A DNA stretch of 64,000 nucleotides, from the NCBI GenBank assembly GCA_028281575.1, contig JANQJP010000022.1, forward strand, positions 1 to 64,000. Reading direction: 5' to 3'. The stretch is from Cellvibrionaceae bacterium (GTDB taxonomy: Bacteria; Pseudomonadota; Gammaproteobacteria; Pseudomonadales; Cellvibrionaceae). Shown one piece after another: positions 21,463-23,893 of the stretch. Made by a program: the position numbers and the translations under genes. The notes beneath the pieces were generated by a model that was not told where the DNA came from, ran no database searches, and worked only from the letters and a program-made list of their open reading frames with translations. How positions within the stretch are numbered: the stretch's first letter is position 1; the number at the start of each line of letters is the position of its first letter.

Positions 21463-22497
<1,035 letters not shown>

Positions 22498-22505
22498 GTT
22501 TAATC

Positions 22506-22530
22506 GGCGTTGCTCATCTTTAGCAGCGCC
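22506..22530 (+). terminator. Intercistronic hairpin between mreB and mreC
   Basis: GGCGTTGCT (22506–22514) pairs with AGCAGCGCC (22522–22530), one G·U, across a 7-base loop, 9 bp after the mreB stop. There is no T-tract. It may partly attenuate transcription or protect the mreB 3' end, keeping MreB above MreC/MreD; that role is inferred. Confidence 0.55.
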
Positions 22531-22565
22531 GCTCGCTTGGGCTGCAACAATGCGGAGAAAGTGCA

Positions 22566-23396
22566 ATTAAACCTCTATTCCGAAAAGGTCCCTCTCCTGG
22601 TCTTCGTTTAGCGCTTTGGGCTGCGTTTGCGCTGATACTGGCGTGTATCTATGTATACACAGATTGGTTGCATTCGCTCAAAAAGAAATCTCTCGATATC
22701 ACCTCTCAGTTCTATTGGGTCTCTGATCTGCCGTCCAAAGCGGAACAGTGGGCTGACAACCGCCTGGTGTCGCGTTCGCGACTGCTGCAAGAAAACAACG
22801 CCTTGCGCTCGGAAAACCTGGTGCTTAGCCAGAAAATTCTTAAAAATGCGGCGCTTGAAGCTGAGAACTTCCGCCTCAGACAGCTTTTAAATGCTTCCGA
22901 GGCTGTTGAGGACAGAGTTTTAATCGCTGAGCTCATTGGTGTTGCCCCCGACCCGCAATTACATAAGGTGATTATCAATCGTGGCGAAGTGCATGGTGTG
23001 TATGCCGGTCAAGCCGTACTCGATGCATTTGGGCTTATGGGGCAGGTTGTAGAGGTGGGTGAACGCTACTGTGTTGTGCTATTAGTGACGGATTCCACTC
23101 ATGCGCTGCCGGTAAAGGTGAACCGAAATGGCGTCAGGCTGGTTGCGGAGGGCGTCGGTAACCTATATGAGCTTAAGCTTAGACACGTGGCAAATACCCT
23201 GGACATTGGTGTCGGCGATTTGCTTGTAAGCTCAGGTTTGGGCGGGCGCTTTCCCGCCGGTTACCCAGTTGCGGAGGTGACTGAAGTCACGATTGATCAG
23301 GGGCGTGCGTTTGCGGAAGTAAAGGCGCGGCCAATGGCAAAACTAAATCGAAGTCGCCATGTTTTACTCGTTTTTGAACGGGAAAAGGAAGGCTAA
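22566..23396 (+). CDS. mreC: Rod-shape determining protein MreC, apparent ATT start
   Basis: Bitopic membrane protein linking MreB to the wall-synthesis machinery. Reading from 22566 gives [I]KPLFRKGPSPGLRL then a membrane helix, aligning with the MKP-F-RGPS start of E. coli MreC; coiled coil and paired beta domains follow (THALPVKV, SGLGGRFPAGYPVA). There is no ATG, GTG or TTG in frame between the stop at 22521 and a TTG at 22668, and starting there would delete the membrane anchor. GGAG at 22554–22557 lies eight bases before the ATT. CTG 22542 is the only other near-start. About 276 residues; a sequencing error is an alternative explanation. Confidence 0.85.
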   Translation: MKPLFRKGPSPGLRLALWAAFALILACIYVYTDWLHSLKKKSLDITSQFYWVSDLPSKAEQWADNRLVSRSRLLQENNALRSENLVLSQKILKNAALEAENFRLRQLLNASEAVEDRVLIAELIGVAPDPQLHKVIINRGEVHGVYAGQAVLDAFGLMGQVVEVGERYCVVLLVTDSTHALPVKVNRNGVRLVAEGVGNLYELKLRHVANTLDIGVGDLLVSSGLGGRFPAGYPVAEVTEVTIDQGRAFAEVKARPMAKLNRSRHVLLVFEREKEG

Positions 23397-23893
23397 TGAT
23401 GTTTGTCGAGAAGCACCCGTTGCTGTTTTATACGATGGTTGTGGTTTCTCTGCTGATAGCCATGCTCGTGGCTATTGCACCCTTTGCGCCAGAGTATCAG
23501 GTACTGCGGCCGGAATTGGTTTGTTTGTTAGTGATCTATTGGGTTGTGAGTGTGCCGCAACACCTGGGTATCAGTTTTGCCTTTTTGACGGGACTCGTTC
23601 AGGATTTGGTTGAGCAGTCTATTTGGGGGGCGCATGCGCTGGCGCTTTCGATTGTTGCCTATATTTGTGTGAGTTCCTATCAGCGTATTAAAAGTTATTC
23701 TATATGGCATCAGACAGCGTGGGTGAGTGTGTTGGTTGGTTTACATCAACTCGTTGTCAATTGGATGCAAAGCCTGGCCGGCTATCGATCGTCAACAATA
23801 TCTCTGCTGGCGTCTGTGATAATCAGTACTTTACTTTGGCCGGTATTGCTATCGGGCCTGCGTAGGTTGCGACAAAACTACCGAATGATTTGA
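23396..23893 (+). CDS. mreD: Rod-shape determining protein MreD
   Basis: Integral membrane partner of MreC in the elongasome. The 165 residues contain about five hydrophobic helices and the conserved LRPELVCLLVIYWV and GLVQDLVEQSIWGAHAL segments. Its ATG overlaps the mreC stop codon by one base (TAATG), so translation is probably coupled; a second ATG is the next codon. Length matches the family. Confidence 0.95.
   Translation: MMFVEKHPLLFYTMVVVSLLIAMLVAIAPFAPEYQVLRPELVCLLVIYWVVSVPQHLGISFAFLTGLVQDLVEQSIWGAHALALSIVAYICVSSYQRIKSYSIWHQTAWVSVLVGLHQLVVNWMQSLAGYRSSTISLLASVIISTLLWPVLLSGLRRLRQNYRMI

Follow-up and report, generated by a model that had tools for sequence, protein, structure and literature searches.

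How does translation of mreC begin in a genome whose mreC frame offers no ordinary start codon where the conserved N-terminus of the protein begins? The question arises in the 64,000-nucleotide stretch of Cellvibrionaceae DNA that we analysed (the window), in which mreB, mreC and mreD follow one another in that order (Table 1).

The mreC start in the window and its relatives

The window mreB ends with TGA at 22495-22497. The mreC frame is closed by TAG at 22521-22523 and stays open from 22524 to the TAA at 23394-23396; no ATG, GTG or TTG lies in frame between that TAG and the ATT at 22566, the sole CTG being at 22542, and the first canonical in-frame codon is TTG 22668, which encodes residue 35 and lies beyond the membrane segment. 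Read from the ATT, MreC begins I-K-P-L-F-R-K-G-P-S, and its isoleucine aligns with residue M1 of E. coli MreC, M-K-P-I-F-S-R-G-P-S (PDB 7EFT). The gene product matches the MreC family PF04085 (G000:C16:22935-23372) and the PDB entries 6ZLV and 7EFT; with its MreC domain, N-terminal membrane anchor and mreB and mreD neighbours, it belongs to the MreC family.

Table 1. Features of the mreB-mreC-mreD region of the window
Feature	Coordinates	Strand	Basis and remarks
mreB	21466..22497	+	ORF; ATG start; upstream gene of the operon; tblastn anchor
Intercistronic hairpin CGGCGTTGCT-CATCTTT-AGCAGCGCCG, 10 pairs, 7-nt loop	22505..22531	+	Folding; without T-run
GGAG, Shine-Dalgarno core	22554..22557	+	8 nt before ATT; position conserved across 131 loci
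mreC start codon ATT	22566..22568	+	Sequence, relatives, class survey, 7EFT alignment, Shine-Dalgarno placement
mreC, ATT to TAA, 276 aa	22566..23396	+	ORF, relatives, PDB match
Hydrophobic membrane-anchor segment, about residues 15-31	22608..22658	+	Sequence and conserved aligned columns; boundaries by eye
mreD	23396..23893	+	ATG overlaps mreC stop (TAATG)

To place this codon among its relatives, we combined a relatives search with a GTDB search, giving 62 related loci in which some genomes occur twice; they include Agaribacterium, Exilibacterium, Cellvibrio, Marinimicrobium, Pseudoteredinibacter, Candidatus Endobugula and Marinobacter. At all 62 the mreC start codon is ATT, ATC or ATA (ATH in DNA, AUH in mRNA), and the closest relative, whose MreC protein is 76% identical, reads GGAGAAGCAGCA-ATC. 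At one locus (L060) a TAA stands immediately 5' of the mreC ATT, and three others (L003, L017 and L025) have a stop two codons ahead of the start; stops adjoining the ATH exclude an upstream start for such loci. An AUH codon lacking any usable canonical alternative, the spacing of the Shine-Dalgarno sequence and the retention of AUH in relatives together identify the window start as near-cognate, and these alignments confirm, at the level of sequence, that the window mreC begins with ATT. The preliminary description of this locus, which had put the start at this ATT eight nucleotides after GGAG and had seen no in-frame ATG, GTG or TTG upstream, was thus correct on both points, and its proposed comparison with orthologues, in which a normal start in sister species would have counted against it, returned only ATC or ATT in the sisters.

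As a separate observation, mreC in one genus within the window's own family (L185) apparently starts with TTG at the same position.

Start codons across the Gammaproteobacteria

We surveyed the class with another 130 loci, for the most part a single one from each GTDB family (families being counted by code), locating mreC behind mreB and placing its first codon with an N-terminus profile. Among the 157 alignable loci, defined by a profile match that extends to position 1 or 2 and with close relatives counted in, 142 start with ATH (ATT 77, ATC 47, ATA 18); the others have ATG (10) or GTG, TTG, GTT, GAG or GCA (1 each). Among 110 GTDB families, ATH occurs in 66 (strict count) to 71 (including hand-read cases) and ATG in 10, leaving about 29 without an assignable start or with other starts. 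Judged from these alignments, an AUH start of mreC is a class-wide feature present in most sampled gammaproteobacterial families, and not the local oddity for which it had initially been taken; the few lineages with ATG, TTG, GTG or GTT indicate that AUH is dispensable for mreC. At 16 loci outside the class (L232-L247) the N-terminal motif is absent and starts appear canonical.

In a genus sample around genome G055, very likely Pseudomonas, that comprised 31 loci from 30 genomes, every mreC starts with ATC or ATT, preceded by GAGG or a comparable Shine-Dalgarno sequence. In one family (L150), about 80 nt after mreB, mreC apparently starts with GTT, reading GGAGGTTCCT-GTT-AAACAC.

The assignment of the start itself was examined at 131 distinct ATH loci. 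At 113 of them no in-frame ATG, GTG or TTG occurs from the upstream stop to the ATH. The strongest anti-Shine-Dalgarno pairing falls 3-8 nt before the ATH at 125 of the 131 loci, whereas shuffles place it there at 36 loci on average and at 48 at most, and the mean pairing energy upstream of ATH is -7.4 kcal/mol versus -4.5 shuffled. Conservation sets in at the same point: columns -14 to -5 carry about 4 bits of amino-acid entropy and the Shine-Dalgarno columns -4 and -3 somewhat less, and the values fall to 0, 0.5, 0.9 and 0 at columns 1, 2, 4 and 5. Columns 1-16 belong to the best-conserved part of the MreC N-terminus, with I, K, L, F and R nearly invariant, and codon 2 is AAA at 98 of the 131 loci while codon -1 varies (GCC, ACC, CCT). 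As a control, a canonical codon was found no more than 10 codons from the aligned start in 45/45 mreB, 45/45 mreD and 36/36 rng genes, versus 16/47 for mreC.

These data weigh on three ways in which the start might not be AUH. That a sequencing or assembly error had removed an ATG or GTG, a source the preliminary description had asked to be checked, has nothing to recommend it beyond the rarity of ATT and is vanishingly improbable, given that isolate and metagenome assemblies made independently in different laboratories, sisters of the window genome among them, share ATH at the same codon. Translation from the upstream CTG 22542 or some other codon, which would make the isoleucine codon internal, accords with that CTG being in frame and open in the window; we nonetheless regard it as highly improbable because a stop lies at codon -2 in 17 of the 131 loci and at codon -1 in one, and because the frame 5' of ATH, with its variable codon -1, is unconserved. 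Slightly less remote, yet still very unlikely, is that a canonical codon downstream (TTG 22668 in the window, GTG at codon 17 in Pseudomonas) is the real start of a short MreC whose upstream conservation is accidental. A downstream codon is what gene callers restricted to ATG, GTG and TTG would choose, and it fits the numbering published for P. aeruginosa, but such a start would remove or halve the membrane anchor and leave the highly conserved columns 1-16 untranslated, the Shine-Dalgarno sequence is positioned for ATH, and E. coli MreC starts at column 1.

The P. aeruginosa numbering can be traced to one codon. Published MreC residues are numbered P114, F115, R175, E188 and R190, and both the cytoplasmic portion and the membrane region are assigned to the first 14 residues (PMC8137920). 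MreC of a Pseudomonadaceae locus (L230), which shares 164 of 176 residues with the P. aeruginosa chain 6ZLV, has all five residues 16 positions later when counted from its ATC, and its codon 17 is GTG, the first canonical in-frame codon, within the hydrophobic segment. The 16-residue offset and the position of this GTG imply that the published protein starts at a GTG within the membrane helix and lacks the first 16 residues; genome annotation thus appears to have cut off the true MreC N-terminus. If so, many database MreC proteins would be too short, and the cytoplasmic tail M-K-P-(L/I)-F would be absent from constructs and alignments built on the published P. aeruginosa numbering. In the Pseudomonas-like loci L198-L228, too, the published residues lie 16 positions later counted from ATC.

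Apparent AUG avoidance, Shine-Dalgarno strength and a proposed control of MreC dosage

We then asked how the AUH codon has been kept. On a quick tree built from concatenated MreB and MreC fragments, with short alignments and a parsimony count that underestimates changes, the wobble base of the start codon moved among T, C and A at least 47 times, as against 9 changes between ATG and ATH. Changes involving G are therefore 9 of 56, against the half expected under equal chances (p = 1e-7, a rough figure), and this rough tree count agrees with the raw start-codon frequencies. That ATG, one point mutation away, was reached only about 9 times suggests that it is selected against and not simply missed. 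The Shine-Dalgarno sequences differ in strength: those of ATH mreC genes pair at -7.3 kcal/mol versus -3.6 for ATG-type mreC (p = 9e-6), and -7.6 kcal/mol versus -3.3 for mreB of the same loci (p = 9e-8).

A weak Shine-Dalgarno sequence with AUG would also yield low output, which argues against a start codon that serves weak translation and nothing else; joining a strong Shine-Dalgarno sequence to a weak codon hints that the start is regulated and not simply weak. The same strong sequence could, however, make up for the weak codon, in which case MreC would reach ordinary levels. Indeed, AUH might be the true start and yet a passive relic, compensated by the Shine-Dalgarno sequence, with ordinary MreC output and no IF3-dependent control. 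We consider this unlikely, though well short of negligible: the very strong Shine-Dalgarno sequence beside AUH and the weaker one beside ATG are what compensation predicts, and some lineages did switch to ATG, but a relic free to change should have reached ATG more often relative to the many exchanges among T, C and A.

The account that we prefer, and hold to be very probable from the sequence patterns, is that mreC initiates at a near-cognate AUH that is kept off AUG, lies behind a strong Shine-Dalgarno sequence and would be discriminated against by IF3, which would result in low MreC output. The strong Shine-Dalgarno sequence would hold the ribosome on the mreC mRNA, and the initiator tRNA, expected to read the window's ATT as formyl-methionine, would pair with AUH with its third base mismatched. 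IF3 would discriminate against this complex, so that the final initiation step would be slow and IF3-sensitive; the preliminary description had likewise expected weak, IF3-discriminated initiation from an ATT start, a consequence with which our analysis agrees. MreC synthesis would then be slow but would increase under IF3 limitation. MreD may follow MreC output because the mreD start overlaps the mreC stop in the window (TAATG), an arrangement that suggests translational coupling, and MreC and MreD may be held below MreB, as the preliminary description had proposed. The likely benefit would be control of MreC dosage, which is plausible because a proposed switch of cell-wall synthesis depends on how much MreC there is in relation to MreD and PBP2 (PMC8137920). 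More tentatively, and in our estimation rather doubtful than probable, IF3 per ribosome may set MreC dosage through AUH and the strong Shine-Dalgarno sequence in most Gammaproteobacteria, linking elongation and cell shape to the state of translation. For cell-shape research mreC would offer a simple test of MreC dosage, and for translation research a widely conserved natural target of IF3.

Precedents and the intercistronic region

To our knowledge, only a few AUH starts have been documented in bacteria. Initiation complexes on codons besides AUG, GUG and UUG are destabilised by IF3, which represses noncanonical starts (PMC5472188); in a reconstituted system IF3 prefers strong third-base pairs and reduces the reading of AUU by CAU (PMC10158994). 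The start codon of infC is AUU in E. coli and AUC in Streptomyces (PMC5472188). Like mreC, infC has a near-cognate AUH behind a clear Shine-Dalgarno sequence, conserved across species and with IF3 discrimination expected, but it controls its own discriminator, whereas mreC serves cell shape and has no feedback role. In the window genome, infC (L194, G000:C50, near 11 kb) reads GGAG-AAATACACA-ATT-AAT-AAT (GGAGAAATACACAATTAATAAT), with a GTG and a TTG upstream in frame, and it probably starts at ATT as well.

Other precedents share parts of this arrangement. In E. coli pcnB an AUU start limits translation (Binns and Masters 2002, as cited in PMC13009471), and as in the low-output reading of mreC the product is wanted in small amount; the pcnB of the window genome, however, has an ATG near its beginning, and the mreC AUH spans many families. 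Streptomyces sigR has a GTC start repressed by IF3, and a canonical codon upsets its balance with its partner (PMC5472188). It parallels mreC in having a noncanonical start, an extended Shine-Dalgarno sequence, dosage set against a partner encoded next to it, and misannotation in genomes, but it differs in codon and phylum, and its IF3 repression is experimental whereas that of mreC is inferred. Output in S. aureus is lowered by AUA and AUU starts that carry extended Shine-Dalgarno sequences, and one of these starts reacts to growth medium (PMC13009471). The genes ccpN (AUA) and cvfC1 (AUU) resemble mreC in their AUH codon, extended Shine-Dalgarno sequence and group-wide conservation, with reduced output in their case; they differ in having been reported for staphylococci and mapped by ribosome profiling (PMC13009471). 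In the open-access literature searched, we found no paper linking mreC to an AUU, AUC or AUA start. The AUH start is a kind already known from infC and pcnB; what is unusual is its breadth across a class: the gene concerned is an essential part of the elongation machinery, and most sampled families of this major class share the start.

The 106-nt mreB-mreC region of the window folds marginally better than shuffles (z = -1.3). The hairpin behind mreB, to which the preliminary description had attributed part of the low MreC and MreD expression, does exist in the window with its 10 pairs, but it varies elsewhere and is no general part of the feature. A terminator scan of the window did not call it, Rfam gave no family match, and the nearest relative (L002) has no comparable stem. 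Mean stem potential in the relatives is 11.6 versus 7.6 shuffled, but the structures differ, and the mreB-mreC distance ranges from 11 to several hundred nt; we therefore rejected the hairpin as a conserved partner of the AUH start. A six-codon ORF (ATGCGGAGAAAGTGCAATTAA, ATG 22550 to TAA 22570) overlaps the Shine-Dalgarno sequence and the ATT in another frame; it was discarded as a coupling device because the nearest relatives lack its ATG in their aligned upstream sequence. Several Cellvibrio genomes (L039, L045, L046, L050 and L056) carry an mreB-mreC hairpin of their own, ending in CGGGCTTC and unlike that of the window.
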